Part shown: positions 5,719 through 64,000 of the stretch, one piece after another
Numbering within the stretch: position 1 is the stretch's first letter
Layout: each line of letters begins with the position of its first letter
Source: Medicago truncatula
Lineage: Eukaryota; Streptophyta; Magnoliopsida; Fabales; Fabaceae
Direction: 5' to 3'
Length of the DNA stretch: 64,000 nt
Assembly: GCF_003473485.1 (NCBI RefSeq)
Contig: NC_053049.1
Location: 29,595,292 to 29,659,291, forward strand
Notes under the pieces: generated by a model
The model's database searches: none
What the model saw: the letters and a program-made list of their open reading frames with translations, nothing else
Told to the model about the DNA's origin: nothing
Position numbers and translations under genes: made by a program

Positions 5719-6058
5719 GGGTGTGTTTGATTTGCAAAACAACAAGTACTGGACAGAACAGTACAAGATAGAACATTACAACACAAGGCAGAACAGCACA
5801 TGACAAATTTTTTATGGCATTGAGTAATTTTTTGTTTTATATGATTTTTGAGGGACAAAATGCTATTTTGATATTTTAGACAACTTGTACGTGGGACAAA
5901 AAGTTGTGCAGTGGTTTGGTGAGGGACAAAAATATGAGTTTTTGTCATGTCCCTTGCCTCCAGTTTGTCCTGTACCTGAAACAGTTTTACAAATCAAACA
6001 TTGAACAACTAGAGTTGTTCTGTTCTGTCCTTCATTTTTTAGCAAATCAAACGCACCC
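5719..6058. mobile_element. Harbinger/Tourist-type MITE, 340 bp
   Basis: The ends GGGTGTGTTTGATTTGCAAAA (left) and AGCAAATCAAACGCACCC (right) are terminal inverted repeats. A TAA trinucleotide flanks each side (5716-5718 and 6059-6061). A TAA target-site duplication with GGG(T)GTGTTTG ends is typical of PIF/Harbinger MITEs. A relative in the opposite orientation lies at 11415-11950. Confidence 0.8.
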
Positions 6059-8125: not shown

Positions 8126-9438
8126 CAAGGTTTTAAAAAACGGTCCTATATCGAGATTTCAGCCGTTACAAAACAGTCACGGCAGCCATGGTACCGTTTT
8201 CACAGAGTGAACAAAAATTACATGTGAAACGTCGTTACGATCGCGACATTGTATGGTCTTAAAACGTTGTTACCGATGCGATACATCAGAGAAAAGCCGT
8301 TACCGGCCTCCTTCCTCTTTGATTCAGTTCAACCATCTTCTAATTCATATCGCATCCTCCAGTCCAAGTTGGTAATATAAATCTCTCTCCCTCCTATATT
8401 CGTGTTGTTGGGGTGTGCATAAGACTTGAAAATTGAGATCTGAGAGAGAAAAATTGGGGTTTCCATGATAAACATGAAAATTTATAGATGAAAGTTGACG
8501 GTGACACTTGAGAAATTGTATGTATCAGTGTCACATGTTGTGAAATTTTGAAAATTTTAGGTGAGTTGTGAAATTGTGGGTAGATCTCTTCAAAAATATC
8601 AATGTTGCGATTATAGACAATGTTGTTATTATTTATGTTGCAAATTCGATGAGAAAACACACCAATAACAAACTTGATGTGTGGAGCAAGGGATAGTCAA
8701 GCAACCAAAACAAAGTGTATGGAAGTTATAATCACAGACAAAAGTAGAAAACAACGAGAGAAAGAAAGAGAAAACACAAAATAATTTGTTGACCCAGTTT
8801 GGTCCAAATTGACCTAGTCTGGAGGAGATAGCAGCCCTCCGTTTCACTATATGATGAGTAACCCTACAAAAGAGATATCTATGGGTTACAAGAATAAGTC
8901 TCCCGCCTAATTCTACCCAAAGTCACAATCTCTTCCCGTAACCAAGAGACTCAATCCTAATAGTGTTTCCCAAGGTGAGTCAACCCTCAAACTCTAGTGT
9001 TTGTTCCGAAGAGACAAACTCTATACAAACCCTAGTTTTGTTGTTGCCTTTCTAAACCCTTGTTTCAGCCCCCTCTATCTCAAGGTTTATACTGATACAA
9101 TGTCTATATTTATAGTAAAAGAATCCTCAATAAAACTGGAACAAATCTAGGCCCGAAAATACGTTTCTATTTTATTTTCTGCTGTCAAAATCGGCCATCG
9201 AATGCTCCAAATCGGCCACCGATTTTTGCCGAACCAAAGGCCATAAAACAGAGTCCAAAATCGGCCACCATGCTCTGAAAATCGGCCATCGATTTTCAGC
9301 TTCCAGAATTCTAATTTCTTCAATTTTGAGGCACTTTCACAACAATTTACACCACGACAACCGCAATCTTCAACGCAACATTCGTGACAGTCGAAATCGT
9401 GAAAACTATCGCGATCGCAACCATTATTTAAAACCTTG
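8126..9438. mobile_element. hAT-like TIR element, 1.3 kb, non-autonomous
   Basis: The left end CAAGGTTTTAAAAAACGGTC and the right end GCAACCATTATTTAAAACCTTG are inverted repeats. TTAGAAAC and TTAGAACC (7 of 8 identical) flank them at 8118-8125 and 9439-9446, consistent with an 8-bp hAT-type duplication. The interior holds repeated ATCGGCCA(C/T)CGA words (9190-9300) and other unclassified sequence that may be a later insertion. No transposase was seen. Confidence 0.65.
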
Positions 9439-36835: not shown

Positions 36836-37167
36836 GTGCCGATCCCTAAAAGGCACTAAACGGAAAAAGAGTTATCCCGTAAAGGGCTCTAAAGTCAGAA
36901 AAAATGTCAACCCCTAAAGGGCTTTGAACATAAAAAGGCATCAACCCCTAGAGGGCTTTGAACGCAAAAAGAGTCAATCTCTGAAGGGATCTGAACTCAT
37001 AAAAAACGTCAACCCCTAGAGGGCTATGAACGTACAAAAACTTCAAGCCCTAAATGGTTTTGAATGTACAAAGACGTTGACCCCTAAAGTGCTCTGAAAT
37101 AAAAAATGGAGTCAACCTCTAAAGGGCTATGAACTTAAAAAACAAGTCGACCATTATGCAGGCTCTA
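36836..37167. repeat. Tandem repeat, about 35-bp unit, nine to ten worn copies
   Basis: The phrase GTCAACCCCTAAAGGGCTTT followed by GAAC and an A-rich tail recurs every 33-35 bp. The copies differ at several positions. The array is cut at its right end by the LTR starting at 37168 and continues for a few bases after it (CTCTGAACTTAC at 39278). Confidence 0.85.
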
Positions 37168-43278: not shown

Positions 43279-43675
43279 TAAAATATATATATTTATAGCT
43301 CTTCTATTGAAAATACCAAATATGTTCTTAAAGAATACATTTAAATACTACTAGGGCGATGAGAGTGTTAGATGAAATCAAATGTTTATATTCCTTATCA
43401 TGTTTCGTGTTTCCTTCTGAGTTAATTTGGATATAATTAAAAAACATGTTTACCACATGTTTCAATTTAATAAGATACACATGAAATTGTGTATTATATA
43501 AACAAACATTACATCCTTCACTATACATTATCATGCAAAGGAATTAGAACTCTTGATTTTCATAATGAGAGAAACAAAACCTATTATTAATTAGCTTATG
43601 TTATGTACATTAAAGTATTCTAGCATGTCAAAAATCAAATGTACTCCCAATATGAGAAAATTTGACAATTCAAAA

Positions 43676-44237
43676 AGGAAGGGAAATAATAAGCTTAACT
43701 TTGCTTTAATATACTTTCAAATAGATGAATTTATATGGGTTAAACACATGCAAGTGCATCAAAGGAGGAAGTGAAGATTTGACAAGTTGTGGAATGATGG
43801 GGATTCGCTTACCATAGGAATGAAAGGGGAAAAATAATTTTGTGTTACCCTTTGACCCAAATGAAGAAGTTGATCAATTCCACACACATAAGGTTTGATT
43901 TTCATTGATTTGGGAAGAAAAGTGTGGATAATGGTGAGGAGGGAGGAGAACGAGAATGAAAGAAGAGAGGAGAGGAGTAGTCTTTAGCTAGTGAGAGAAA
44001 TGAAGAGATAGAATGAAGGAGTTAGGTGAGTTTGGCCTATTTATAAGGACAAGGTGAAAGTACCTTAGTACCCTTTTCTAAAATATTTGCTCAGACCACT
44101 AAAGCCGACACTGATAACTGAACGTGTGTGTTTATTGGCCACTGCAGGTTAAGTATTCCTCGTTAATTAATTTTCAAAAACATTTTTCATACGTTCTCCG
44201 ACATCGCAATCTGTTGAGAATTTAGCGGGATGTTACA
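43676..44237 (-). mobile_element. LTR-like fragment at the left end of the array, fossil
   Basis: On the minus strand it begins TGTAACATCCCGCTAAATTC and contains CTTATAAATAGGCC, a TATA box, near 44034-44047. The terminus resembles that of the LTR at 37168-39277. It takes the place of the C-terminal half of the first DUF1645 copy. The other edge is not well defined. Confidence 0.6.
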
Positions 44238-44726
44238 TGAAGATGTGAGACATTATTATTTGATGTGGGATAAATGAATAGAGATTGGTCAAAAGTGTGT
44301 GGTATTTGTCGCATTTTTCCATTTTCAAACGTCTCATCGGCAAAAATATATATATGCAGTCCTTGAACTTTGGTGCATGCAACATTAAACTCTCTTTCTT
44401 CAACATTTTCTTCATCATTGTCCTGCATTTGTTCTTTGGTTCTATAATATGGATCGACTTTAAAAGCCATCAAAATAAAAAAAAGAGTCGTTGTCAATTT
44501 GTTGTTTTGTACTACAAAATGGATCAACTTTATCTTGAACGGGAGAAGAGCCATTAAAATCAAAAAGAGTGTCGTTCTTAATTTGTTGTTTTCTGCTACG
44601 AATTGAATCAACTTTATCTGGAATGGGAGCAAACCCAGAAAATTCAAGAAAAGGGTGGGGTGTGCAGAGAATTGATAGAGCTTGCACTCTTAGGATCTCA
44701 ATATTATTTGAGCCTGTTTTCTGCAT
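44238..44726 (-). pseudogene. DUF1645 copy 1, truncated pseudogene
   Basis: It starts like the other copies (MQKTGSNNIEILRVQALSIL) and keeps two of the three N-terminal 28-residue repeats. A deletion of 11 bp near 44462, relative to copy 2, shifts the frame within the third. The C-terminal half, from about residue 163 on, is absent; LTR-like sequence takes its place and the downstream spacer resumes before 43675. The 53-bp promoter-proximal segment of copies 3-8 is also missing. It is not expected to make a functional protein. Confidence 0.9.
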
Positions 44727-45260
44727 TTTGTTTCAATTACGAGTTTGAGATGTGTTGTCAAACAGCTACGAAATGATGAATTATGGTTGTCAAACGACAC
44801 TCGGTTAACTTGGATATTTTAGGATGTAGTTACACATGGAAGGTGCGAAAGAGTGTTAAGAAGTTGCCAATGTCTTTTTATGTTATACCTTACATTTGTT
44901 GCTTATCAAATTTAATCGATACGATTTAGTTATTTCTTTTTAAAATTAGGAAATTATATTGGGCTTTACAACAATTTACCCTCTTTTAGTGAGTTGTTCG
45001 ACCACTGTTATGTTTTCTAAGCATTTCAACAGAACACACACAAGTGCAACCTCCATGTGTTCGCTTGTTAGTTGCTACTAATTAAGTACGTTATTTATTA
45101 ATGATTTACTCTTTGGTTGAGAAAAAAAAAAAAGAATTCACTTGGAAAGGTCATACAAATTTAAATCAGAATATTGTCATTACATAGCATATATATTAAA
45201 AAAGATATTACAAGAATCATGTAATTAAATCTTTATAAGAACACTAAAAAATAAGATATG

Positions 45261-45479
45261 TTACTCAAAAGCAAAATAAAAATTACGATATGTTGTTATT
45301 GTTACATGCTCTAAATAGTTTTGTAGATTTATAAAGATAATAGAAGGAACATGTTGAACATATATTAACTCGAAATGTTTTTCACTCATTTTTCCACAAT
45401 ATTCTAATGCACGGGATGATTCATAAGAAGACGAGAAAATAAATTTTTTAATTAAGTACAAAATTTTATTATATAGCAT
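45261..45479 (-). other. Spacer open frame of 72 codons, kept in three units
   Basis: An open frame (MLYNKILYLIKKFIFSSSYE onward) occurs at 45261-45479, 47477-47695 and 49699-49917 with the same predicted protein. It is not open in the later units, which differ by substitutions and indels. It has no recognised domain and lies in AT-rich spacer DNA, so it is more likely a by-product of unit identity than a gene. Confidence 0.3.
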
Positions 45480-45979
45480 TTATGATTTTCTTATGTATAT
45501 TCTGTTTTCCAAATTTGTTTTTGATCTATATAATATACCATATTGCATTCTTTAAAGATTATAAATAAGCTACATATGTTTTGCTTGTATGAACTTTAGA
45601 TTTGACTAACCTTTAAATATATTTTTTTATTATTAAAATTTTTTATTAGTAAAAAAGGAAAACAATGCGTTGTTCCAAGTGGTAACTGAGAAAAAAAAGT
45701 TTCTTTAGTACGTACTATTCATAAAACTTGTAATATGATTAAAAAAACATGTTTAACACGTGTTTCTATTTAATGAGATACACATGAAAATGTGTATTAT
45801 ATAAACAAACATTAGATCATTCACTCTACATTATCATGCGAGGAAATTAGAACTCTTGATTTTCATAATCAGAGAAACAAAGCCTATTGCTAATTAGCTG
45901 ATTTTAATGTACATTAAAGTATTCTACTATGTCAAAAATCATATGTACTCCCAACACGAGAAAACTTGGCAATTCAAAC

Positions 45980-46942
45980 TCAAAAGGGGTGCAGGTTCCT
46001 ACTCAATCCATGCATGTTGGTAAAGAGCCCCAATAACTGGCGTTTGTAAGGCAAAAATGATCTTCTTTTGTTGCTATCCTTCCTTGTTTTATTAGACACG
46101 TACAACTTCTCGTAAGCTGATAATCCATTTATGTGTTTTTCATCCTTCCTCTTTTTATGAACAAAGTTTTCTACCTTTGGCTTTCTGGAATTTTTTGGAT
46201 CCGAAGCATTCAATAAAACTAATGAATCCTTATGGTCGCTGTTACTTCGAAGATTCATGTTTTGTCTAAATTTCCACAAATTTGATGACCCTGTGGAGTT
46301 GCTTTTTTCGTAACACTCATTCGAAGCCTTTATCTCCACCATTGTCATATTCTGCAATGACTCGTTTTGAGATTCTTTTGAAATACCACCTAGCATTGAG
46401 TGTCGATTTACGAAATTCTTAATAAAGATCTTCTTTAGTGGTGGTCGAAGATGTGAGACATTATTATTTGAGGTGGGATAGATGAATAGAGATTGGTCAA
46501 AAGTGTGTGGTATTTGTCGTATTTTTCCATTTTCAAATATCTCATCGGCAAATATATGCAGTCCTCGGACTTTGGTGCATGCAAAACTAAACTCTCCTTC
46601 TTCAATATTTTCTTCATCATTGTCTTGCCTTTGTTCTTTACTTCTATTATATCTATCGACTTTATCTTCAACTGGAGAAAAGCCATCAAAATCAAGAAAA
46701 GCGTTGTTGTCAATTTGTTGTTTTGTACTACAAAATGGATCAACTTTATCTTGAACGGGAGAAGAGCCATCAAAATCAAAAAGAGTGTCGTTCTTAATTT
46801 GTTGTTTTCTGCTACGAATTGAATCAACTTTATCTGGAATGGGAGCAAACCCAGAAAATTCAAGAAAAGGGTGGGGTGTGCAGAGAATTGATAGAGCTTG
46901 CACTCTTAGGATCTCAATATTATTTGAGCCTGTTTTCTGCAT
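45980..46942 (-). CDS. DUF1645 family protein, array copy 2, 320 aa
   Basis: Intronless frame of 320 codons. Residues 29-56, 57-84 and 85-108 are three tandem repeats of the type F-(D/S)-G-x-(A/S)-P-x-x-DKVD (28-residue period). The DUF1645 core follows: an acidic EEGEFSFACTK near 115-124, then FADEIFENGKIRQIPHTFDQ at 131-150, PPLKKIFIK, an LRSNSDHKDSLVLL motif at 231-244, and the C-terminal SFLPYKRQLLGLFTN with LSRNLHPF. DUF1645 is plant-specific; rice SGL, a member, affects grain length and drought response. The biochemical role is unknown. This is the most divergent full copy (for example Val91, Arg97, Phe177, Phe260, His262, Ile271, His311). It lacks the 53-bp upstream segment with the TATA-like box, so it may be silent. 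Confidence 0.9.
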   Translation of the reverse strand: MQKTGSNNIEILRVQALSILCTPHPFLEFSGFAPIPDKVDSIRSRKQQIKNDTLFDFDGSSPVQDKVDPFCSTKQQIDNNAFLDFDGFSPVEDKVDRYNRSKEQRQDNDEENIEEGEFSFACTKVRGLHIFADEIFENGKIRQIPHTFDQSLFIYPTSNNNVSHLRPPLKKIFIKNFVNRHSMLGGISKESQNESLQNMTMVEIKASNECYEKSNSTGSSNLWKFRQNMNLRSNSDHKDSLVLLNASDPKNSRKPKVENFVHKKRKDEKHINGLSAYEKLYVSNKTRKDSNKRRSFLPYKRQLLGLFTNMHGLSRNLHPF

Positions 46943-48194
46943 TTTGTTTCAATTACGAGTTTGAGATGTGTTGTCAAACAGCTACGAAATGATGAATCAT
47001 GGTTGTCAAACGACACTCGGTTATCTTGGATATTTTAGGATGTAGTTACACATGAAAGGTGCGAAAGAGTGTTAAGAAGTTGCCAATGTCTTTTTATGTT
47101 ATACCTTACATTTGTTGCTTATCAAATTTAATCGATACGATTTAGTTATTTCTTTTTAAAATTAGGAAATTATATTGGGCTTTACAACAATTTACCCTCT
47201 TTTAGTGAGTTGTTCGACCACTGTTATGTTTTCTAAGCATTTCAACAGAACACACACAAGTGCAACCTCCATGTGTTCGCTTGTTAGTTGCTACTAATTA
47301 AGTACGTTATTTATTAATGATTTACTCTTTGGTTGAGAAAAAAAAAAAAGAATTCACTTGGAAAGGTCATACAAATTTAAATCAGAATATTGTCATTACA
47401 TAGCATATATATTAAAAAAGATATTACAAGAATCATGTAATTAAATCTTTATAATACCACTAAAAAATAAGATATGTTACTCAAAAGCAAAATAAAAATT
47501 ACGATATGTTGTTATTGTTACATGCTCTAAATAGTTTTGTAGATTTATAAAGATAATAGAAGGAACATGTTGAACATATATTAACTCGAAATGTTTTTCA
47601 CTCATTTTTCCACAATATTCTAATGCACGGGATGATTCATAAGAAGACGAGAAAATAAATTTTTTAATTAAGTACAAAATTTTATTATATAGCATTTATG
47701 ATTTTCTTATGTATATTCTGTTTTCCAAATTTGTTTTTGATCTATATAATATACCATATTGCATTCTTTAAAGATTATAAATAAGCTACATATGTTTTGC
47801 TTGTATGAACTTTAGATTTGACTAACCTTTAAATATATTTTTTTATTATTAAAATTTTTTATTAGTAAAAAAGGAAAACAATGCGTTGTTCCAAGTGGTA
47901 ACTGAGAAAAAAAAGTTTCTTTAGTACGTACTATTCATAAAACTTGTAATATGATTAAAAAAACATGTTTAACACGTGTTTCTATTTAATGAGATACACA
48001 TGAAAATGTGTATTATATAAACAAACATTAGATCATTCACTCTACATTATCATGCGGGGAAATTAGAACTCTTGATTTTCATAACCAGAGAAACAAAGCC
48101 TATTGCTAATTAGCTGATTTTTATGTACATTAAAGTATTCTACTATGTCAAAAATCATATGTACCCCAACACGAGAAAACTTGGCAATTCAAAC

Positions 48195-49112
48195 TCAAAA
48201 GGGGTGCAGGTTCCTACTCAATCCATTCATGTTGGTAAAGAGCCCCAATAACTGGCGTTTGTAAGGCAAAAATGATCTTCTTTTGTTGCTATCCTTCCTT
48301 GTTTTATTAGACACGTACAACTTCTCGTAAGCTGATAATCCATTTTTGTGTTTTTCATCCTTCCTCTTTTTATTAACAATGTTTTCTACCTTTGGCTTTC
48401 TGGAATTTTTTGGATCCGAAGCATTCAATAAAACTCTAAATTTCCACAAATTTGATGACCCTGTGGAGTTGCTTTTTTCGTAACACTCATTCGAAGCCTT
48501 TATCTCCACCATTGTCATATTCTGCAATGACTCGTTTTGAGATTCTTTTGAAATACCACCTAGCATTGAGTGTCGATTTACGGAATTCTTAATAAAGATC
48601 TTCTTTAGTGGTGGTCGAAGATGTGAGACATTATTATTTGAGGTAGGATAGATGAATAGAGATTGGTCAAAAGTGTGTGGTATTTGTCGTATTTTTCCAT
48701 TTTCAAATATCTCATCGGCAAATATATGCAGTCCTCGGACTTTGGTGCATGCAAAACTAAACTCTCCTTCTTCAATATTTTCTTCATCATTGTCTTGCCT
48801 TTGTTCTTTACTTCTATTATATCTATCGACTTTATCTTCAGCTGGAGAAAAGCCATCAAAATCAAGAAAAGCGTCGTTGTCAATTTGTTGTTTTGTACTA
48901 CAAAATGGATCAACTTTATCTTGAACGGGAGAAGAGCCATCAAAATCAAAAAGAGTGTCGTTCTTAATTTGTTGTTTTCTGCTACGAATTGAATCAACTT
49001 TATCTGGAATGGGAGCAAACCCAGAAAATTCAAGAAAAGGGTGGGGTGTGCAGAGAATTGATAGAGCTTGCACTCTTAGGATCTCAATATTATTTGAGCC
49101 TGTTTTCTGCAT
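48195..49112 (-). CDS. DUF1645 family protein, array copy 3, 305 aa
   Basis: Same architecture as copy 2 but 45 bp shorter in frame. Residues 227-241 of the 320-aa form (QNMNLRSNSDHKDSL) are missing, which removes most of the family's LRSNSDxKD motif. The N-terminal triple repeat, the ADEIFENGKIR core and the C-terminus are intact. It has the TATA-like box at 49188-49195, 76 bp before the ATG. The same 45-bp loss occurs in copy 8. Whether the shorter protein works is unknown. Confidence 0.85.
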   Translation of the reverse strand: MQKTGSNNIEILRVQALSILCTPHPFLEFSGFAPIPDKVDSIRSRKQQIKNDTLFDFDGSSPVQDKVDPFCSTKQQIDNDAFLDFDGFSPAEDKVDRYNRSKEQRQDNDEENIEEGEFSFACTKVRGLHIFADEIFENGKIRQIPHTFDQSLFIYPTSNNNVSHLRPPLKKIFIKNSVNRHSMLGGISKESQNESLQNMTMVEIKASNECYEKSNSTGSSNLWKFRVLLNASDPKNSRKPKVENIVNKKRKDEKHKNGLSAYEKLYVSNKTRKDSNKRRSFLPYKRQLLGLFTNMNGLSRNLHPF

Positions 49113-49187
49113 TTTGTTTCAATTACGAGTTTGAGATGTGTTGTTATAAGGTTAATTGAATGTGGGAAGTGATTAAGAAATTTGAAA

Positions 49188-49195
49188 TATATATA
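49188..49195 (-). promoter_or_regulatory. TATA-like box of array copies 3-8 (copy 3 position)
   Basis: On the minus strand GTTTATATATATTTC lies 76 bp before the ATG. The same spacing holds in copies 4 (51456-51463), 5 (53723-53730), 6 (55993-56000), 7 (58258-58265) and 8 (60481-60488). Copies 1 and 2 lack it because 53 bp are absent there. Confidence 0.6.
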
Positions 49196-50417
49196 AACAA
49201 ACAGCTACAAAATGATGAATTATGGTTGTCAAACGACACTCGGTTAACTTGGATATTTTAGGATGTAGTTACACATGGAAGGTGTGAAAGAGTGTTAAGA
49301 AGTTGCCAATGTCTTTTTATGTTATACCTTACATTTGTTGCTTATCAAATTTAATCGATACGGTTTAGTTATTTCTTTTTAAAATTAGGAAATTATATTG
49401 GGCTTTACAACAATTTACCCTCTTTTAGTGAGTTGTTCGACCACTGTTATGTTTTCTAAGCATTTCAACATAACACACACAAGTGCAACCTCCATGTGTT
49501 CGCTTGTTAGTTGCTACTAATTAAGTACGTTATTTATTAATGATTTACTCTTTGGTTGAGAAAAAAAAAAAGAATTCACTTGGAAAGGTCATACAAATTT
49601 AAATCAGAATATTGTCATTACATAGCATATATATTAAAAAAGATATTACAAGAATCATGTAATTAAATCTTTATAAGAACACTAAAAAATAAGATATGTT
49701 ACTCAAAAGCAAAATAAAAATTACGATATGTTGTTATTGTTACATGCTCTAAATAGTTTTGTAGATTTATAAAGATAATAGAAGGAACATGTTGAACATA
49801 TATTAACTCGAAATGTTTTTCACTCATTTTTCCACAATATTCTAATGCACGGGATGATTCATAAGAAGACGAGAAAATAAATTTTTTAATTAAGTACAAA
49901 ATTTTATTATATAGCATTTATGATTTTCTTATGTATATTCTGTTTTCCAAATTTGTTTTTGATCTATATAATATACCATATTGCATTCTTTAAAGATTAT
50001 AAATAAGCTACATATGTTTTGCTTGTATGAACTTCAGATCTGACTAACCTTTAAATATTTTTTTTTATTATTAAAATTTTTTGTTAATAAAAAAGGAAAA
50101 CAATGTGTTGTTCCAAGTTGTAACTGAGATAAATAAGTTTCTTTAGTACATAGTAATCATAAAACTTGTAATATGATTAAAAAAACATGTTTAACACGTG
50201 TTTCTATTTAATGAGATACACATGAAAATGTGTATTATATAAACAAACATTAGATCATTCACTCTAGATTATCATGCGAGGAAATTAGAACTCTTGATTT
50301 TCATAATCAGAGAAACAAAGCCTATTGCTAATTAGCTGATTTTTATGTACATTAAAGTATTCTACTATGTCAAAAATCATATGTACTGCCAACACGAGAA
50401 AACTTGGCAATTCAAAC

Positions 50418-51380
50418 TCAAAAGGGGTGCAGGTTCCTACTCAATCCATTCATGTTGGTAAAGAGCCCCAATAACTGGCGTTTGTAAGGCAAAAATGATC
50501 TTCTTTTGTTGCTATCCTTCCTTGTTTTATTAGACACGTACAACTTCTCGTAAGCTGATAATCCATTTTTGTGTTTTTCATCCTTCCTCTTTTTATTAAC
50601 AATGTTTTCTACCTTTGGCTTTCTGGAATTTTTTGGATCCGAAGCATTCAATAAAACGAATGAATCCTTATGGTCGCTGTTACTTCGAAGATTCATGTTT
50701 TGTCTAAATTTCCACAAATTTGATGACCCTGTGGAGTTGCTTTTTTCGTAACACTCATTCGAAGCCTTTATCTCCACCATTGTCATATTCTGCAATGACT
50801 CGTTTTGAGATTCTTTTGAAATACCACCTAGCATTGAGTGTCGATTTACGGAATTCTTAATAAAGATCTTCTTTAGTGGTGGTCGAAGATGTGAGACATT
50901 ATTATTTGAGGTGGGATAGATGAATAGAGATTGGTCAAAAGTGTGTGGTATTTGTCGTATTTTTCCATTTTCAAATATCTCATCGGCAAATATATGCAGT
51001 CCTCGGACTTTGGTGCATGCAAAACTAAACTCTCCTTCTTCAATATTTTCTTCATCATTGTCTTGCCTTTGTTCTTTACTTCTATTATATATATCGACTT
51101 TATCTTCAGCTGGAGAAAAGCCATCAAAATCAAGAAAAGCGTCGTGGTCAATTTGTTGTTTTGTACTACAAAATGGATCAACTTTATCTTGAACGGGAGA
51201 AGAGCCATCAAAATCAAAAAGAGTGTCGTTCTTAATTTGTTGTTTTCTGCTACGAATTGGATCAACTTTATCTGGAATGGGAGCAAACCCAGAAAATTCA
51301 AGAAAAGGGTGGGGTGTGCAGAGAATTGATAGAGCTTGTACTCTTAGGATCTCAATATTATTTGAGCCTGTTTTCTGCAT
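50418..51380 (-). CDS. DUF1645 family protein, array copy 4, 320 aa
   Basis: Full-length frame with all DUF1645 blocks. It differs from copy 5 at Pro41, His79 and Phe241. It has a TATA-like box at 51456-51463. Against copy 2, I count eleven amino-acid-changing substitutions and one silent one over the whole frame. Confidence 0.9.
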   Translation of the reverse strand: MQKTGSNNIEILRVQALSILCTPHPFLEFSGFAPIPDKVDPIRSRKQQIKNDTLFDFDGSSPVQDKVDPFCSTKQQIDHDAFLDFDGFSPAEDKVDIYNRSKEQRQDNDEENIEEGEFSFACTKVRGLHIFADEIFENGKIRQIPHTFDQSLFIYPTSNNNVSHLRPPLKKIFIKNSVNRHSMLGGISKESQNESLQNMTMVEIKASNECYEKSNSTGSSNLWKFRQNMNLRSNSDHKDSFVLLNASDPKNSRKPKVENIVNKKRKDEKHKNGLSAYEKLYVSNKTRKDSNKRRSFLPYKRQLLGLFTNMNGLSRNLHPF

Positions 51381-52684
51381 TTTGTTTCAATTACGAGTTT
51401 GAGATGTGTTGTTATAAGGTTAATTGAATGTGGGAAGTGATTATGAAATTTGAAATATATATAAACAAACAGCTACGAAATGATGAATTATGGTTGTTAA
51501 ACGACACTCAGTTAACTTGGATATTTTAGGATGTAGTTACACATGGAAGGTATGAAAGAGTGTTAAGAAGTTGCCAATGTCTTTTTATGTTATACCTTAC
51601 ATTTGTTGCTTATCAAATTTAATTGAAACGGTTTAGTTATTTTTTTTTTTAAATTAGGAAATTATATTGGGCTTTACAACAATTTACCCTCTTTTAGTGA
51701 GTTGTTCGACCACTGTTATGTTTTCTAAGCATTTCAACAGAACACACACAAGTGCAACCTCCATGTGTTCGCTTGTTAGTTGTTACTAATTAAGTACGTT
51801 ATTAATTTATGATTTACTCTTTGGTTGAGAAAAAAAAAATGAATTCACTTGGAAAGGTCATACAAATTTAAATCAGAATATTGTCATTACATAGCATATA
51901 TATTAAAAAAGATATTACAAGAATCATGTAATAAATCTTTATGAGAACACTAAAAAATAAGATATGTTACTCAAAAACAAAATAAAAATTACGATATGTT
52001 GTTATTGTTACATGCTCTAAATAGTTTTATAGATTTATAAAGATAATAGAAGGAACATGTTGAACATATATTAAGTCGAAATGTTTTTCACTCATTTTTC
52101 CACAATATTCTAATGCACGGGATGATTCATAAGAAGAGGAGAAAACAAATTTTTTAATTAAGTATGAGATTTTATTATATAGCATTTATGATTTTCTTAT
52201 GTATATTCTGTTTTCCAAATTTGTTTATGATCTATATAATATACCATATTGCATTCTTTAAAGATTATAAATAAGCTACATATGTTTTGCTTGTATGAAC
52301 TTCAGATCTGACTAACGTTTAAATATTTTTTTTTATTATTAAAATTTTTTATTAGTAAAAAAGGAAAACAATGCGTTGTTCCAAGTTGCAACTGAGAAAA
52401 AAAAGTTTCTTTAGTACGTAGTAATCATAAAACTTGTAATATGATTAAAAAAACATGTTTAACACGTGTTTCTATTTAATGAGATACACATGAAAATGTG
52501 TATTATATAAACAAACATTAGATCATTCACTCTACATTATCATGCGGGGAAATTAGAACTCTTGATTTTCATAATCAGAGAAACAAAGCCTATTGCTAAT
52601 TAGCTGATTTTTATGTACATTAAAGTATTCTACTATGTCAAAAATCATATGTACCCCAACACGAGAAAACTTGGCAATTCAAAC

Positions 52685-53647
52685 TCAAAAGGGGTGCAGG
52701 TTCCTACTCAATCCATTCATGTTGGTAAAGAGCCCCAATAACTGGCGTTTGTAAGGCAAAAATGATCTTCTTTTGTTACTATCCTTCCTTGTTTTATTAG
52801 ACACGTACAACTTCTCGTAAGCTGATAATCCATTTTTGTGTTTTTCATCCTTCCTCTTTTTATTAACAATGTTTTCTACCTTTGGCTTTCTGGAATTTTT
52901 TGGATCCGAAGCATTCAATAAAACTAATGAATCCTTATGGTCGCTGTTACTTCGAAGATTCATGTTTTGTCTAAATTTCCACAAATTTGATGACCCTGTG
53001 GAGTTGCTTTTTTCGTAACACTCATTCGAAGCCTTTATCTCCACCATTGTCATATTCTGCAATGACTCGTTTTGAGATTCTTTTGAAATACCACCTAGCA
53101 TTGAGTGTCGATTTACGGAATTCTTAATAAAGATCTTCTTTAGTGGTGGTCGAAGATGTGAGACATTATTGTTTGAGGTGGGATAGATGAATAGAGATTG
53201 GTCAAAAGTGTGTGGTATTTGTCGTATTTTTCCATTTTCAAATATCTCATCGGCAAATATATGCAGTCCTCGGACTTTGGTGCATGCAAAACTAAACTCT
53301 CCTTCTTCAATATTTTCTTCATCATTGTCTTGCCTTTGTTCTTTACTTCTATTATATATATCGACTTTATCTTCAGCTGGAGAAAAGCCATCAAAATCAA
53401 GAAAAGCGTCGTTGTCAATTTGTTGTTTTGTACTACAAAATGGATCAACTTTATCTTGAACGGGAGAAGAGCCATCAAAATCAAAAAGAGTGTCGTTCTT
53501 AATTTGTTGTTTTCTGCTACGAATTGAATCAACTTTATCTGGAATGGGAGCAAACCCAGAAAATTCAAGAAAAGGGTGGGGTGTGCAGAGAATTGATAGA
53601 GCTTGCACTCTTAGGATCTCAATATTATTTGAGCCTGTTTTCTGCAT
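52685..53647 (-). CDS. DUF1645 family protein, array copy 5, 320 aa
   Basis: Full-length frame whose protein is identical to that of copy 6. The TATA-like box is at 53723-53730. All family blocks are present, and the C-terminus ends LSRNLHPF. It can serve as the reference sequence for the array. Confidence 0.92.
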   Translation of the reverse strand: MQKTGSNNIEILRVQALSILCTPHPFLEFSGFAPIPDKVDSIRSRKQQIKNDTLFDFDGSSPVQDKVDPFCSTKQQIDNDAFLDFDGFSPAEDKVDIYNRSKEQRQDNDEENIEEGEFSFACTKVRGLHIFADEIFENGKIRQIPHTFDQSLFIYPTSNNNVSHLRPPLKKIFIKNSVNRHSMLGGISKESQNESLQNMTMVEIKASNECYEKSNSTGSSNLWKFRQNMNLRSNSDHKDSLVLLNASDPKNSRKPKVENIVNKKRKDEKHKNGLSAYEKLYVSNKTRKDSNKRRSFLPYKRQLLGLFTNMNGLSRNLHPF

Positions 53648-54954
53648 TTTGTTTCAATTACGAGTTTGAGATGTGTTGTTATAAGGTTAATTGAATGTGG
53701 GAAGTGATTATGAAATTTGAAATATATATAAACAAACAGCTACGAAATGATGAATTATGGTTGTTAAACGACACTCGGTTAACTTGGATATTTTAGGATG
53801 TAGTTACACATGGAAGGTGTGAAAGAGTGTTAAGAAGTTGCCAATGTCTTTTTATGTTATACCTTACATTTGTTGCTTATCAAATTTAATTGATACGGTT
53901 TAGTTATTTTTTTTTTTAAAATTAGGAAATTATATTGGGCTTTACAACAATTTACCCTCTTTTAGTCAGTTGTTCGACCACTGTTATGTTTTCTAAGCAT
54001 TTCAACAGAACACACACAAGTGCAACCTCCATGTGTTCGCTTGTTAGTTGCTACTAATTAAGTACGTTATTTATTTATGATTTACTCTTTGGTTGAGAAA
54101 AAAAAAATGAATTCACTTGGAAAGGTCATACAAATTTAAATCAGAATATTGTCATTACATAGCATATATATTAAAAAAGATATTACAAGAATCATGTAAT
54201 TAAATCTTTATGAGAACACTAAAAAATAAGATATGTTACTCAAAAACAAAATAAAAATTACGATATGTTGTTATTGTTACATGCTCTAAATAGTTTTATA
54301 GATTTATAAAGATAATAGAAGGAACATGTTGAACATATATTAAGTCGAAATGTTTTTCACTCATTTTTCCACAATATTCTAATGCACGGGATGATTCATA
54401 AGAAGAGGAGAAAACAAATTTTTTAATTAAGTATGAGATTTTATTATATAGCATTTATGATTTTCTTATGTATATTCTGTTTTCCAAATTTGTTTATGAT
54501 CTATATAATATACCATATTGCATTCTTTAAAGATTATAAATAAGCTACATATGTTTTGCTTGTATGAACTTCAGATCTGACTAACGTTTAAAATTTTTTT
54601 TTTATTATTAAAATTTTTTATTAGTAAAAAAGGAAAACAATGCGTTGTTCCAAGTTGCAACTGAGAAAAAAAAGTTTCTTTAGTACGTAGTAATCATAAA
54701 ACTTGTAATATGATTAAAAAAACATGTTTAACACGTGTTTCTATTTAATGAGATACACATGAAAATGTGTATTATATAAACAAACATTAGATCATTCACT
54801 CTACATTATCATGCGGGGAAATTAGAACTCTTGATTTTCATAATCAGAGAAACAAAGCCTATTGCTAATTAGCTGATTTTTATGTACATTAAAGTATTCT
54901 ACTATGTCAAAAATCATATGTACCCCCAACACGAGAAAACTTGGCAATTCAAAC

Positions 54955-55917
54955 TCAAAAGGGGTGCAGGTTCCTACTCAATCCATTCATGTTGGTAAAG
55001 AGCCCCAATAACTGGCGTTTGTAAGGCAAAAATGATCTTCTTTTGTTACTATCCTTCCTTGTTTTATTAGACACGTACAACTTCTCGTAAGCTGATAATC
55101 CATTTTTGTGTTTTTCATCCTTCCTCTTTTTATTAACAATGTTTTCTACCTTTGGCTTTCTGGAATTTTTTGGATCCGAAGCATTCAATAAAACTAATGA
55201 ATCCTTATGGTCGCTGTTACTTCGAAGATTCATGTTTTGTCTAAATTTCCACAAATTTGATGACCCTGTGGAGTTGCTTTTTTCGTAACACTCATTCGAA
55301 GCCTTTATCTCCACCATTGTCATATTCTGCAATGACTCGTTTTGAGATTCTTTTGAAATACCACCTAGCATTGAGTGTCGATTTACGGAATTCTTAATAA
55401 AGATCTTCTTTAGTGGTGGTCGAAGATGTGAGACATTATTGTTTGAGGTGGGATAGATGAATAGAGATTGGTCAAAAGTGTGTGGTATTTGTCGTATTTT
55501 TCCATTTTCAAATATCTCATCGGCAAATATATGCAGTCCTCGGACTTTGGTGCATGCAAAACTAAACTCTCCTTCTTCAATATTTTCTTCATCATTGTCT
55601 TGCCTTTGTTCTTTACTTCTATTATATATATCGACTTTATCTTCAGCTGGAGAAAAGCCATCAAAATCAAGAAAAGCGTCGTTGTCAATTTGTTGTTTTG
55701 TACTACAAAATGGATCAACTTTATCTTGAACGGGAGAAGAGCCATCAAAATCAAAAAGAGTGTCGTTCTTAATTTGTTGTTTTCTGCTACGAATTGAATC
55801 AACTTTATCTGGAATGGGAGCAAACCCAGAAAATTCAAGAAAAGGGTGGGGTGTGCAGAGAATTGATAGAGCTTGCACTCTTAGGATCTCAATATTATTT
55901 GAGCCTGTTTTCTGCAT
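54955..55917 (-). CDS. DUF1645 family protein, array copy 6, 320 aa
   Basis: Full-length frame that encodes the same protein as copy 5, with a near-identical spacer. This points to a very recent duplication or conversion. The TATA-like box is at 55993-56000. Confidence 0.92.
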   Translation of the reverse strand: MQKTGSNNIEILRVQALSILCTPHPFLEFSGFAPIPDKVDSIRSRKQQIKNDTLFDFDGSSPVQDKVDPFCSTKQQIDNDAFLDFDGFSPAEDKVDIYNRSKEQRQDNDEENIEEGEFSFACTKVRGLHIFADEIFENGKIRQIPHTFDQSLFIYPTSNNNVSHLRPPLKKIFIKNSVNRHSMLGGISKESQNESLQNMTMVEIKASNECYEKSNSTGSSNLWKFRQNMNLRSNSDHKDSLVLLNASDPKNSRKPKVENIVNKKRKDEKHKNGLSAYEKLYVSNKTRKDSNKRRSFLPYKRQLLGLFTNMNGLSRNLHPF

Positions 55918-57222
55918 TTTGTTTCAATTACGAGTTTGAGATGTGTTGTTATAAGGTTAATTGAATGTGGGAAGTGATTATGAAATTTGAAATATATATA
56001 AACAAACAGCTACGAAATGATGAATTATGGTTGTTAAACGACACTCGGTTAACTTGGATATTTTAGGATGTAGTTACACATGGAAGGTGTGAAAGAGTGT
56101 TAAGAAGTTGCCAATGTCTTTTTATGTTATACCTTACATTTGTTGCTTATCAAATTTAATTGATACGGTTTAGTTATTTTTTTTTTTAAAATTAGGAAAT
56201 TATATTGGGCTTTACAACAATTTACCCTCTTTTAGTCAGTTGTTCGACCACTGTTATGTTTTCTAAGCATTTCAACAGAACACACACAAGTGCAACCTCC
56301 ATGTGTTCGCTTGTTAGTTGCTACTAATTAAGTACGTTATTTATTTATGATTTACTCTTTGGTTGAGAAAAAAAAAATGAATTCACTTGGAAAGGTCATA
56401 CAAATTTAAATCAGAATATTGTCATTACATAGCATATATATTAAAAAAGATATTACAAGAATCATGTAATTAAATCTTTATGAGAACACTAAAAAATAAG
56501 ATATGTTACTCAAAAACAAAATAAAAATTACGATATGTTGTTATTGTTACATGCTCTAAATAGTTTTATAGATTTATAAAGATAATAGAAGGAACATGTT
56601 GAACATATATTAAGTCGAAATGTTTTTCACTCATTTTTCCACAATATTCTAATGCACGGGATGATTCATAAGAAGAGGAGAAAACAAATTTTTTAATTAA
56701 GTATGAGATTTTATTATATAGCATTTATGATTTTCTTATGTATATTCTGTTTTCCAAATTTGTTTATGATCTATATAATATACCATATTGCATTCTTTAA
56801 AGATTATAAATAAGCTACATATGTTTTGCTTGTATGAACTTCAGATCTGACTAACGTTTAAAATTTTTTTTTTATTATTAAAATTTTTTATTAGTAAAAA
56901 AGGAAAACAATGCGTTGTTCCAAGTTGGAACTGAGAAAAAAAGTTTCTTTAGTACGTAGTAATCATAAAACTTGTAATATGATTAAAAAAACATGTTTAA
57001 CACGTGTTTCTATTTAATGAGATACACATGAAAATGTGTATTATATAAACAAACATTAGATCATTCACTCTACATTATCATGCGGGGAAATTAGAACTCT
57101 TGATTTTCATAATCAGAGAAACAAAGCCTATTGCTAATTAGCTGATTTTTATGTACATTAAAGTATTCTACTATGTCAAAAATCATATGTACCCCAACAC
57201 GAGAAAACTTGGCAATTCAAAC

Positions 57223-58182
57223 TCAAAAGGGGTGCAGGTTCCTACTCAATCCATTCATGTTGGTAAAGAGCCCCAATAACTGGCGTTTGTAAGGCAAAAA
57301 TGATCTTCTTTTGTTGCTATCCTTCCTTGTTTTATTAGACACGTACAACTTCTCGTAAGCTGATAATCCATTTTTGTTTTTCATCCTTCCTCTTTTTATT
57401 AACAATGTTTTCTACCTTTGGCTTTCTGGAATTTTTTGGATCCGAAGCATTCAATAAAACTAATGAATCCTTATGGTCGCTGTTACTTCGAAGATTCATG
57501 TTTGTCTAAATTTCCACAAATTTGATGACCCTGTGGAGTTGCTTTTTTCGTAACACTCATTCGAAGCCTTTATCTCCACCATTGTCATATTCTGCAATGA
57601 CTCGTTTTGAGATTCTTTTGAAATACCACCTAGCATTGAGTGTCGATTTACGGAATTCTTAATAAAGATCTTCTTTAGTGGTGGTCGAAGATGTGAGACA
57701 TTATTGTTTGAGGTGGGATAGATGAATAGAGATTGGTCAAAAGTGTGTGGTATTTGTCGTATTTTTCCATTTTCAAATATCTCATCGGCAAATATATGCA
57801 GTCCTCGGACTTTGGTGCATGCAAAACTAAACTCTCCTTCTTCAATATTTTCTTCATCATTGTCTTGCCTTTGTTCTTTACTTCTATTATATATATCGAC
57901 TTTATCTTCAGCTGGAGAAAAGCCATCGAAATCAAGAAAAGCGTCGTTGTCAATTTGTTGTTTTGTACTACAAAATGGATCAACTTTATCTTGAACGGGA
58001 GAAGAGCCATCAAAATCAAAAAGAGTGTCGTTCTTAATTTGTTGTTTTCTGCTACGAATTGAATCAACTTTATCTGGAATGGGAGCAAACCCAGAAAATT
58101 CAAGAAAAGGGTGGGGTGTGCAGAGAATTGATAGAGCTTGCACTCTTAGGATCTCAATATTATTTGAGCCTGTTTTCTGCAT
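57223..58182 (-). pseudogene. DUF1645 copy 7, frameshifted
   Basis: The frame opens normally but runs only to residue 228. Relative to copy 6, one T is missing from a T run near 57500-57503, which shifts the frame just before the LRSNSDxKD motif. A 2-bp loss near 57376 in a GT-rich run restores the original frame for the last 60 or so codons, after stops in between. The truncated product would keep the N-terminal repeats and the ADEIF core but lose the C-terminal blocks. The TATA-like box at 58258-58265 is intact. A sequencing error in homopolymer runs is possible. Confidence 0.85.
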
Positions 58183-59487
58183 TTTGTTTCAATTACGAGT
58201 TTGAGATTTGTTGTTATAAGGTTAATTGAATGTGGGAAGTGATTATGAAATTTGAAATATATATAAACAAACAGCGACGAAATGATGAATTATGGTTGTT
58301 AAACGACACTCGGTTAACTTGGATATTTTAGGATGTAGTTACACATGGAAGGTGTGAAAGAGTGTTAAGAAGTTGCCAATGTCTTTTTATGTTATACCTT
58401 ACATTTGTTGCTTATCAAATTTAATTGACACGGTTTAGTTATTTTTTTTTTAAATTAGGAAATTATATTGGGCTTTACAACAATTTACCCTCTTTTAGTG
58501 AGTTGTTCGACCACTGTTATGTTTTCTAAGCATTTCAACAGAACACACACAAGTGCAACCTCCATGTGTTCGCTTGTTAGTTTGTTACTAATTAAGTACG
58601 TTATTAATTTATGATTTACTCTTTGGTTGAGAAAAAAAAAATGAATTCACTTGGAAAGGTCATACAAATTTAAATCAGAATATTGTCATTACATAGCATA
58701 TATATTAAAAAAGATATTACAAGAATCATGTAATTAAATCTTTATGAGAACACTAAAAAATAAGATATGTTACTCAAAAACAAAATAAAAATTACGATAT
58801 GTTGTTATTCTTACATGCTCTAAATAGTTTTATAGATTTATAAAGATAATAGAAGGAACATGTTGAACATATATTAAGTCGAAATGTTTTTCACTCATTT
58901 TTCCACAATATTCTAATGCACGGGATGATTCATAGGAAGAGGAGAAAACAAATTTTTTAATTAAGTATGAATTTTATTATATAGCATTTATGATTTTCTT
59001 ATGTATATTCTGTTTTCCAAATTTGTTTATGATCTATATAATATACCATATTGCATTCTTTAAAGATTATAAATAAGCTACATATGTTTTGCTTGTATGA
59101 ACTTCAGATCTGACTAACGTTTAAATATTTTTTTTTATTATTAAAATTTTTTATTAGTAAAAAAGGAAAACAATGCGTTGTTCCAAGTTGCAACTGAGAA
59201 AAAAAAGTTTCTTTAGTACGTAGTAATCATAAAACTTGTAATATGATTAAAAAAACATGTTTAACACGTGTTTCTATTTAATGAGATACACATGAAAATG
59301 TGTATTATATAAACAAACATTAGATCATTCACTCTACATTATCATGCGGGGAAATTAGAACTCTTGATTTTCATAATCAGAGAAACAAAGCCTATTGCTA
59401 ATTAGCTGATTTTTATGTACATTAAAGTATTCTACTATGTCAAAAATCATATGTACTCCCAACACGAGAAAACTTGGCAATTCAAAC

Positions 59488-60405
59488 TCAAAAGGGGTGC
59501 AGGTTCCTACTCAATCCATTCATGTTGGTAAAGAGCCCCAATAACTGGCGTTTGTAAGGCAAAAATGATCTTCTTTTGTTGCTATCCTTCCTTGTTTTAT
59601 TAGACACGTACAACTTCTCGTAAGCTGATAATCCATTTTTGTGTTTTTCATCCTTCCTCTTTTTATTAACAATGTTTTCTACCTTTGGCTTTCTGGAATT
59701 TTTTGGATCCGAAGCATTCAATAAAACTCTAAATTTCCACAAATTTGATGACCCTGTGGAGTTGCTTTTTTCGTAACACTCATTCGAAGCCTTTATCTCC
59801 ACCATTGTCATATTCTGCAATGACTCGTTTTGAGATTCTTTTGAAATACCACCTAGCATTGAGTGTCGATTTACGGAATTCTTAATAAAGATCTTCTTTA
59901 GTGGTGGTCGAAGATGTGAGACATTATTGTTTGAGGTGGGATAGATGAATAGAGATTGGTCAAAAGTGTGTGGTATTTGTCGTATTTTTCCATTTTCAAA
60001 TATCTCATCGGCAAATATATGCAGTCCTCGGACTTTGGTGCATGCAAAACTAAACTCTCCTTCTTCAATATTTTCTTCATCATTGTCTTGCCTTTGTTCT
60101 TTACTTCTATTATATATATCGACTTTATCTTCAGCTGGAGAAAAGCCATCAAAATCAAGAAAAGCGTCGTTGTCAATTTGTTGTTTTGTACTACAAAATG
60201 GATCAACTTTATCTTGAACGGGAGAAGAGCCATCAAAATCAAAAAGAGTGTCGTTCTTAATTTGTTGTTTTCTGCTACGAATTGAATCAACTTTATCTGG
60301 AATGGGAGCAAACCCAGAAAATTCAAGAAAAGGGTGGGGTGTGCAGAGAATTGATAGAGCTTGCACTCTTAGGATCTCAATATTATTTGAGCCTGTTTTC
60401 TTCAT
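59488..60405 (-). CDS. DUF1645 family protein, array copy 8, 305 aa
   Basis: It carries the same 45-bp in-frame deletion as copy 3, and Lys instead of Gln at residue 2. Elsewhere it matches copies 5-6, including Ile97, where copy 3 has Arg. The TATA-like box is at 60481-60488. Its upstream spacer is cut at about 61058 by retroelement sequence, roughly 650 bp before the ATG, so distal promoter sequence present in other copies is lost. Confidence 0.87.
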   Translation of the reverse strand: MKKTGSNNIEILRVQALSILCTPHPFLEFSGFAPIPDKVDSIRSRKQQIKNDTLFDFDGSSPVQDKVDPFCSTKQQIDNDAFLDFDGFSPAEDKVDIYNRSKEQRQDNDEENIEEGEFSFACTKVRGLHIFADEIFENGKIRQIPHTFDQSLFIYPTSNNNVSHLRPPLKKIFIKNSVNRHSMLGGISKESQNESLQNMTMVEIKASNECYEKSNSTGSSNLWKFRVLLNASDPKNSRKPKVENIVNKKRKDEKHKNGLSAYEKLYVSNKTRKDSNKRRSFLPYKRQLLGLFTNMNGLSRNLHPF

Positions 60406-61329
60406 TTTGTTTCAATTACGAGTTTGAGATGTGTTGTTATAAGGTTAATTGAATGTGGGAAGTGATTATGAAATTTGAAATATATATAAACAAACAGCTA
60501 CGAAATGATGAATTATGGTTGTTAAACGACACTCGGTTAACTTGGATATTTTAGGATGTAGTTACACATGGAAGGTGTGAAAGAGTGTTAAGAAGTTGCC
60601 AATGTCTTTTTATGTTATACCTTACATTTGTTGCTTATCAAATTTAATTGATATGGTTTAGTTATTTTTTTTTTTAAATTAGGAAATTATATTGGGCTTT
60701 ACAACAATTTACCCTCTTTTAGTGAGTTGTTCGACCACTGTTATGTTTTCTAAGCATTTCAACAGAACACACACAAGTGCAACCTCCATGTGTTCGCTTG
60801 TTAGTTGCTACTAATTAAGTACGTTATTTATTTATGATTTACTCTTTGGTTGAGAAAAAAAAAATGAATTCACTTGGAAAGGTCATACAAATTTAAATCA
60901 GAATATTGTCATTACATAGCATATATATTAAAAAAGATATTACAAGAATCATGTAATTAAATCTTTATGAGAACACTAAAAAATAAGATATGTTACTCAA
61001 AAACAAAATAAAAATTACGATATGTTGTTATTGTTACATGCTCTAAATAGTTTTATAGAAGAAGAAGAAGGACGGAAAGAGAGAGAAGAGAAAGGAAAAA
61101 ATGAGAAAAAAAGGAAAGAATGGGTATTTATACCCCTTTTATTTGGCAGATTAAATCAAGGCCGTTGATCAAATCAACGGCCGAGATTTGATCTCTGAGG
61201 TCCAACCTTGTTCTTGGCCCATCTTTTTCGTTTTATTTTCTGCACCCCCCTTTACTGCTCACACACCCCCAGCATCTCATTTTTCTAATTTCTTTTTCAT
61301 GCATTTTAATTCTCGCTCTATCTGTTAAT

Positions 61330-61740
61330 CCAGAGTGCTCTGGTCCAAAATTAACTTAATATTATATTCTTGCTTAATTTAGTTATTCTCCAGGATAATC
61401 TGGTCATTGTTAATTAAATTAATCCAGAGTGCTCTGGTCCTATATTAACTATTAATATTATATTTCTGTTTAAATTAATTATTCTCCAGAGTGCTCTGGT
61501 CATTGTTAATTAAATTAATCCAGAGTGCTCTGGTCCTAATTAACTGTTAATATTATATTTTTTTTAATTATTCTCCAGAGTGCTCTGGTCATTGTTAATT
61601 AAATTAATCCAGAGTGCTCTGGTCCTAAATTAACTGTTAATATTATATTTTTGTTAATCCAGAGTGCTCTGGTCCAAACTTAAATGTTAATATTTATTTA
61701 TTTTTGTTTAATTTAATTATTCTCCAGAATATTCTGGTCC
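61330..61740. repeat. Nine copies of a CCAGAGTGCTCTGG palindrome in an LTR
   Basis: CCAGAGTGCTCTGG or a close variant recurs near 61333, 61392, 61425, 61484, 61521, 61574, 61609, 61660 and 61723. Flanks alternate between TTAAATTAATCC-type and AATTATTCTCC-type words, giving a higher-order repeat of about 90 bp in the middle of the block. Confidence 0.85.
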
Positions 61741-63241
61741 ATGTTAAAACAACTTCACAATTCAGCTTAACTTCATTTTTCTCATTCTGCTTATCTTTAT
61801 TCCAAAACAACAAAAACATTCAAATAAAAAATCACAAAAATATTTTTTCATTACAAACCTTGATTCTCAAATCAAGTGATCGTTCTTTTTATTTTTCTTA
61901 ATCAAATTTCAAATCAAGTCTAATTCAACTTCAAGTCAATTTTCTTCAATCTAAAAAACACAAATCAATTCTCATTTGCCATCTGGCTTTTTATTTCAAA
62001 ACCTTTTTCAAAACATATAAAAAACACCAAACAAATCAAACGTTAATTTCTACCCCGAACTACGAGGTTTTGATCCCTCACGGGTACGTAGGCAGAGGAC
62101 CTTGTCCTTCCAAATCAATTAAAAAACAATTTTCTTTTTTTTCTTTTCAACTTTCAACTAAAAAAATATTTTTCTTTTTTCTTTTCAATTAAAATCAATT
62201 TTCTTTTCTTTTTCAACTCATCATTCAATTCCATTTTCATCTCTTTAAAAGCAAGCAAGTTTAAGCACAAAAAGTTAAATAAAATCAAGAGGTTCTCGTA
62301 GAGTACTACGAATATTTAGGGTGCTAATACCTTCCCTAAGTATAACCAACCCCCGAACCCTGAATCTCTTCAAAATGGGTTGTTTGGAACGTTTTCCCCT
62401 AAAAAAAAATTTGTTCGGTCGTGATATAAAAAGTGAGTCAAAGTCAATCAAATGGCCTTGACGTCCGAAAAATGGCGCGGCAGAAATGGCGACTTCACTA
62501 GGGAACCTTAAGAGGGTTGAGCCTAACTTGGCTTTATTTAATTCTTTGCGCTCTAACTTGCTTAAAACAAAAAAAACAAAAATAAAGGATGGAAATACTG
62601 GTATATATGTTCTCTTTTCTTCTTTCTTTTTTTTCCTTAACGTGAGTGGTGAGATAAGTCCTACACCCGGGCTTGAGGGAAACATAAGATAAGATGGTGG
62701 TATAACCAAAGTGCCATTCCGAGAGTCAAGTCTCGTGTTTTGGTTCATGTGGTATAACCCCGCTCAATGGAGGAATCTTGGAAGTAATTTATGTTGGCAT
62801 GAGTAGTCGTGTTGGCATTGTATTTTCAAGTGACCGTCGAAGTGGAGGACCTTTAGTTACCATTACCCATCTTGGCCTTTTAGGACGTAGTGCGGTGGCT
62901 AATCAAGAGTAGTCTTGGTCTAGTTGATACGCGATACTACACTCAGACGAGACTTTCTTACGAACGTTGTTGGACCGGAAGTATTTCCGTAACCCGATGA
63001 CATTCGGAAGCGGTTAAAGACTCTGGGAACTTGGTAGAACCCGTGATACAGGTACAAATGAGACCATAGTCCTTACCAAATGGCGTGTTTACCCTTTGAC
63101 TCCATCATTGTGGACCTAAAACCTCACCATGTTTTCACCATTTGTGCAGCATAATCATGCATACATGCATTCATCCATAAAAACTTCTTTCATCAAAATA
63201 TCGAAGGGCTTATATAGTTTTTTTTTGTAAATATCAAAGGG

Positions 63242-64000
63242 ATGGAGAGAAGAAACACTAGGAAGTTTACTTTCAAGAAATTGGATTTGATGAACTTAAG
63301 GGATCTTGCAGTTAAGGTAGCTAGTCCGGAAGACTTTCATGATCGTCATGGGAGGCTGCTTGGTATCCTTTGGACAAATGTTGAGAAAGGATGTTTGGAG
63401 ACCTTGGTCCAATTTTATGACCCTACTTACCATTGTTTTACTTTCCCCGACTACCAACTTGCTCCCACCCTCGAGGAATACTCCTACTTAGTTGGCCTAC
63501 CAGTGCTTGACGAAGTACCATTTACCGGCCTTGAACCCATTCCAAAAGCCGCCACTATTGCAGATGCTCTCCATCTCGAAACCTCTCTCATAAAAACAAA
63601 ACTCACCATCAAAGGAAATCTTCCAAGCCTACCCGCCAAATTCCTTTACCAACAAGCCTCTGATTTCGCCGAAGTAAACAATGTCAACGCCTTTTACTCC
63701 ATCCTAGCCTTACTCATTTACGGCCTTGTACTGTTCCCAAATGTTGATAATTATGTTGACATCCATGCCATTCAAATCTTCCTCACAAAGAACCTGTCCC
63801 CACATTGTTAGCCGATATGTACCATTCCATACACGATCGGAACCAGGTAGGTCGTGGGGCTATCCTCGGTTGTGCACCTTTACTATACAAATGGTTTACC
63901 TCTCATTTACCCCAAACCCATTCCTTTCAAGCCAATCCAAGAAATCTCTCTTGGTCTAAAAGAATCATGTCCCTCACTCCATCTGACATAGCCTGGTATC
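63242..64000 (+). mobile_element. ORF1-type (plant mobile domain-like) region of the Ogre/Tat element
   Basis: The translated sequence begins MERRNTRKFTFKKLDLMNLR and includes FYDPTYHCFTFPDYQLAPTL and EEYSYLVGLP. This is typical of the plant mobile domain (aminotransferase-like, PMD) found in transposon-encoded proteins and in the extra ORF that Ogre elements carry before gag. The region is not a clean reading frame throughout and runs off the window. Confidence 0.7.

Follow-up and report, generated by a model that had tools for sequence, protein, structure and literature searches.

A young tandem array of 26 DUF1645 gene units, split by an LTR retrotransposon, in Medicago truncatula

DUF1645 proteins are tied to growth and stress through a few cereal members. 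In the portions of the literature cited here, overexpression of members in rice alters grain size and drought response (PMC10298434), and the link rests on OsSGL (PMC5186801, PMC5137154) and ZmDUF1645 (PMC10298434), proteins other than the one described below, for which an OsSGL-like role in growth or stress is a candidate by family membership. The two are reported from different places in the cell, ZmDUF1645 from membranes and OsSGL from the nucleus (PMC10298434), so no mechanism can safely be borrowed from either. The maize gene is also called intron-less there, as the present gene is. At the level of genome organization, the closest known systems are plant tandem gene arrays; on chromosome 6 of M. 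truncatula, for example, the CBF/DREB1 array, in the part of the paper cited (PMC4046650), likewise consists of local gene duplications in a Medicago genome. Judged by the titles and abstract openings listed, no paper on DUF1645, PF07816 or Medicago tandem duplication in the library searched reports a comparable DUF1645 array, and the main text of PMC5369179 contains no word beginning with "DUF".

Our starting point was a 64,000-nucleotide stretch of M. truncatula DNA (the window) on contig C8, which measures 49.71 Mb in a genome of 429.9 Mb and 42 contigs. A first-pass annotation, made from the letters of the window, had described eight head-to-tail units of about 2.2 kb at 43430-61058, six of them with full-length frames, as a recent tandem amplification of a DUF1645 gene. 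The eight units are there, in register at window positions 43431-61059, with a start-to-start spacing of 2170-2270 bp and a single orientation by BLAST, and the six frames are confirmed as U02, U04, U05 and U06 (320 aa) and U03 and U08 (305 aa). The features in the window are:

43431-45979, minus strand: U01, a decayed edge unit with 3' flank and a coding remnant (44239-44758); about 0.56 kb of other sequence replaces the 3' coding half, and the TATA-like site is missing
45980-48194, minus strand: U02, 320-aa frame intact (45980-46942); ahead of the ATG 53 bp are deleted, and with them the TATA-like site
48195-50417, minus strand: U03, 305-aa frame intact (48195-49112); the LRSNSD stretch is lost by a 45-bp in-frame deletion
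50418-52684, minus strand: U04, 320-aa frame intact (50418-51380)
52685-54954, minus strand: U05, the reference unit, 320-aa frame intact (52685-53647)
54955-57222, minus strand: U06, 320-aa frame intact (54955-55917), 0.04% from U05
57223-59487, minus strand: U07, broken by a 2-bp and a 1-bp deletion, leaving a 228-aa frame (57496-58182)
59488-61059, minus strand: U08, 305-aa frame intact (59488-60405), with the 45-bp deletion of U03 and its upstream part cut by the retrotransposon
61060-64000, plus strand: start of an LTR retrotransposon of 15.2 kb in all (C8:29656351-29671516), which splits the array

What the first-pass annotation took for the whole array is less than one third of it. With the U05 unit as query against 220 kb of C8 around the window, less 291 bases outside the array, BLAST finds 26 units over 73 kb (C8:29638722-29712075, 73.4 kb), all 26 head-to-tail in one orientation, the gene lying on the minus strand. 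U01-U08 lie in the window and the other 18 (U09-U26) beyond it, to the right of the retrotransposon, which rules out the window edge as the end of the array and enlarges the picture about threefold by units and fourfold by length. In addition to the 26 units, a partial spacer (C8:29671517-29672254) directly adjoins the retrotransposon on its right. A whole-genome DNA search with the unit, in which common words were skipped, returned two matches, both at the array ends; the genome-wide view is taken from a protein search, among whose 44 matches all near-identical ones fall on C8 and none elsewhere.

That the locus marks the breakpoint of the A17 chromosome 4/8 translocation was considered and rejected: the excerpts cited put this breakpoint at about 37.03 Mb on the Mt5.0 chromosome 8 (PMC8122578), or about 34 Mb on that of an older assembly (PMC5545040), and the array lies at 29.6 Mb, a comparison that takes the present genome to be Mt5.0. 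No Rfam family reaches its gathering score in the window's part of the array; elsewhere in the window, precursors of the MIR5286 and MIR5285 families do so on the minus strand (5942-6019 and 8870-8932). The window also holds a 34-bp tandem repeat (CCCTAAAGGG...) of about 8.7 copies at 36844-37142.

The units bear out the proposed recent amplification, and indeed the window understates it, the youngest copies (U18-U26) lying outside. Mean divergence is 1.19% within the left block (U02-U08), 0.26% within the right block, 0.90% between blocks and only 0.07% within U18-U26, where U21 and U23 are identical. Across U02-U26, units differ more the farther apart they lie (Mantel r 0.43, a value reached by none of 5000 permutations), U01, which is 11-19% from the others, having been left out of the test. 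The near-identity of U05 and U06 had been read as a sign of youth; the near-identity itself stands, but the pair sits in the older left part. Old units are found at the left edge, U01-U03, with U02 and U03 differing from other units by 0.8-2.2%, and not at the right, where U26 is 0.15% from its neighbours, so that edge units older than the middle are seen on one side only. Such older edges are common in arrays shaped by unequal exchange, and not obligatory.

Shared variants are mostly ordered as well. The listed two-allele columns whose rarer allele occurs in two or more units number 36; in 26 of these the carriers stand next to one another (for example U18-U26, U20-U25, U24-U25 and U02-U03), and 10 do not fit. 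The array shows two marks of a tandem array grown by unequal exchange, units head-to-tail on one strand and neighbours more alike than distant units. Divergence falls along the array and near units are alike, which suggests an array with a young right end, shaped by repeated unequal crossing-over and by conversion, and the 45-bp deletion common to U03 and U08 suggests exchange or conversion between units. Such a ladder of nested variants is hard to obtain from one burst of copying.

The copy number is that of one assembly of near-identical repeats, and the size of the array could in part be an artefact, with right-end units over- or under-counted and many broken frames due to consensus errors. 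Sixteen of the 26 units have intact frames (U02-U06, U08, U14, U15, U18-U21 and U23-U26). Among the ten broken ones, U01 is truncated, U11 has a 10-bp deletion, and the other eight (U07, U09, U10, U12, U13, U16, U17 and U22) have no gaps other than of 1-3 bp, each with at least one deletion of 1-2 bp and two also with a common 3-bp deletion. Isolated 1-bp indel columns in U02-U26 comprise 30 minority deletions against one minority insertion, a bias that looks like the consensus error of unpolished long reads, so that 16 intact frames may be a lower bound. Since eight of the ten carry only such small deletions and the bias is this strong, some of the broken frames are probably assembly errors. 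Private deletions, 20 in number, are moreover concentrated in U09 (six) and U10 (five), of which U10 has just one private substitution, and U18-U25 are only 0-0.1% apart. Against an artefact, substitutions among units are ordered and mostly nested, U02-U04, U07 and U09 each carry 6 to 21 private ones, none of the protein matches off C8 is near-identical, and the span is assembled without a single N. U09 may be truly diverged, because six private substitutions accompany its six deletions. We regard a partly artefactual size as doubtful yet a serious possibility, and one that is compatible with our preferred account of stepwise amplification by unequal exchange.

Inside the array, selection is weak or leaves no visible trace. 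Changes among the 16 intact copies number 5 at synonymous and 13 at nonsynonymous sites, and the pN/pS of 0.66 is not different from 1 (binomial p 0.39). Nonsynonymous sites vary less than the spacer (p 0.0005), while synonymous sites do not differ from it (p 0.26). Indels of 1-2 bp are not significantly rarer in coding sequence (12 events in 963 bp) than in spacer (28 in 1305 bp; p 0.15), a comparison blurred by errors. A TATA-like string is retained in 24 of the 26 units, and in the 23 of those whose start site matched the search string it lies 83 bp before the ATG (U08, which differs at codon 2, falls outside this set); in U05, TATATATATTTC begins 83 bp upstream of the ATG.

An adaptive amplification, in which many near-identical copies increase expression of one DUF1645 protein, would account for the many intact frames, the retained TATA-like sites, the lower variability of nonsynonymous sites relative to spacer, and the fact that eight right-block copies (U18-U21 and U23-U26) score alike as proteins. 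It is not what the pN/pS ratio or the coding indels would lead one to expect, and we consider it rather unlikely. At the other extreme, the array could be a satellite-like repeat in which a dying gene happens to sit, and which is for the most part silenced or gives rise to small RNAs. Ten broken frames, a retrotransposon inside the array and an identity gradient such as satellites would give fit this reading, but 16 frames are intact, near-identical copies are confined to one locus, and the coding sequence has been constrained since its split from a paralogue on chromosome 5; we think it unlikely. That constraint is seen over 237 codons, where the array gene and the paralogue differ by pS 0.83, which is saturated, and pN 0.40, and therefore points to protein-coding evolution of the lineage before the array arose.

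As to family, the three intact window copies tested, of six, match PF07816 along the full length of the model (U02 46.5, U06 55.7 and U08 37.9 bits; cut-off 25), with the 228-aa frame of U07 falling below the cut-off at 17 bits. In having the whole model in one open frame the protein resembles rice OsSGL and maize ZmDUF1645. The blocks EF.F, DE.F..G.IR, KSNSTGSS..WKFR, LRSNSD and LPYK align with most of the paralogues shown, LRSNSD being absent from U03 and U08. These blocks are kept C-terminally; the N-terminal part holds an 84-bp (28-aa) internal repeat, of 2.6 copies in U02-U08 and 2.0 in U01, without clear counterpart in the paralogues. The nearest of these, the chromosome-5 gene, is 39% identical, and the protein matches on C5, C3, C6 and C4 are 32-62% identical across the parts matched. 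A blastn comparison for promoter homology with the chromosome-5 gene yielded two weak matches, which lie within coding sequence, and in the spacer two short ones that are not significant. No solved structure matched the protein at E values up to 1, and a structure predicted for U05 from its single sequence is uninformative, with a mean pLDDT of 33.7.

Among nine aligned paralogues of the same genome (L005 left out), eight have the C-terminal LPY block. The ninth, on C4 (L008:1288-1917), has a 209-aa frame without it. Two DUF1645 genes on C6 (L037:1859-2758 and L038:3447-4304) lie about 10 kb apart with dS 0.40 and dN 0.11, and are an older local duplication within the family.

The two LTRs of the retrotransposon share 99.07% identity across 1404 bp, the alignment having 10 mismatches and three gap openings. 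Taking about 1e-8 substitutions per site per year, the 10 differences in 1404 would correspond to an insertion roughly 0.36 million years old. Four of the five frames searched match known domains (gag, reverse transcriptase, RNase H and integrase zinc-binding between them), and relatives exist in the genome, for example a 98% match at C8:18675589 (19 of 3708 candidates scored, with the left 8.65 kb as query). No target-site duplication could be established at the element. In unit coordinates, the unit parts that flank it leave a gap of about 82 bp, therefore a small deletion is assumed with or after insertion. Within the 5' LTR a stretch of about 96 bp is repeated in tandem, in 3.5 copies (window 61325-61699), and internal repeats of that sort occur in both LTRs.

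Together, these observations make the following history very probable. A full cassette of a DUF1645 gene, comprising a promoter-like region, the intronless coding sequence and 3' flank, would have been duplicated in tandem, and repeated unequal homologous exchange between units would have led to 26 head-to-tail copies, while U01, U02 and U03 at the left edge escaped homogenization and diverged. The retrotransposon would then have entered between the present U08 and U09, accompanied or followed by the loss of about 82 bp, and the right-hand block would have expanded or homogenized separately, its distal end becoming the youngest. Copy number in this assembly, orientation, the divergence gradient, the mostly nested variants, the insertion and the 16 intact frames are directly seen; unequal exchange as the mechanism and the order of events are what we infer from them. 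A pN/pS not clear of 1, the 10 misfit columns of 36, a right edge that is not old, the single assembly behind the copy number with its 30:1 indel bias, and the extra deletion needed at the retrotransposon count against the account.

Many copies may be transcribed, and together they would then supply more of a single, nearly uniform protein, though we think it somewhat more likely that copy number drifts neutrally, or nearly so, than that the dose is selected. A bolder reading is that the array serves dosage, is specific to this lineage and is still expanding; its gene would be a DUF1645 regulator that evolved rapidly, its copy number would vary among Medicago accessions and so adjust a trait of growth or stress, and the retrotransposon would have isolated the old block and let the distal block run away. 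We consider this distinctly improbable. If copy number does vary among plants, the array would offer a direct test of DUF1645 dose on such traits. With its many intact frames it is in any case a natural record of ongoing amplification, in which the ladder of shared variants lets the order of duplication be read, and equally a warning that assembly polishing limits copy counts and pseudogene calls in arrays of near-identical repeats.

Compared with its DUF1645 kin, the array protein stands apart by its low identity to even the best paralogue and its N-terminal 28-aa repeats, and the locus by its 26 tandem copies, where the other DUF1645 matches in the genome lie in separate places or, on C6, as a pair. 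The regularity of the array is closer to that of a satellite or rDNA-type array. Unlike the CBF/DREB1 array, as described in the excerpt cited (PMC4046650), it consists of uniform 2.2-kb cassettes, 26 in number, up to 100% identical and interrupted by a retrotransposon. Its kind, a young tandem gene array, is known; it is the regularity, size and youth that are notable, and the locus is striking in size and ordinary in kind.
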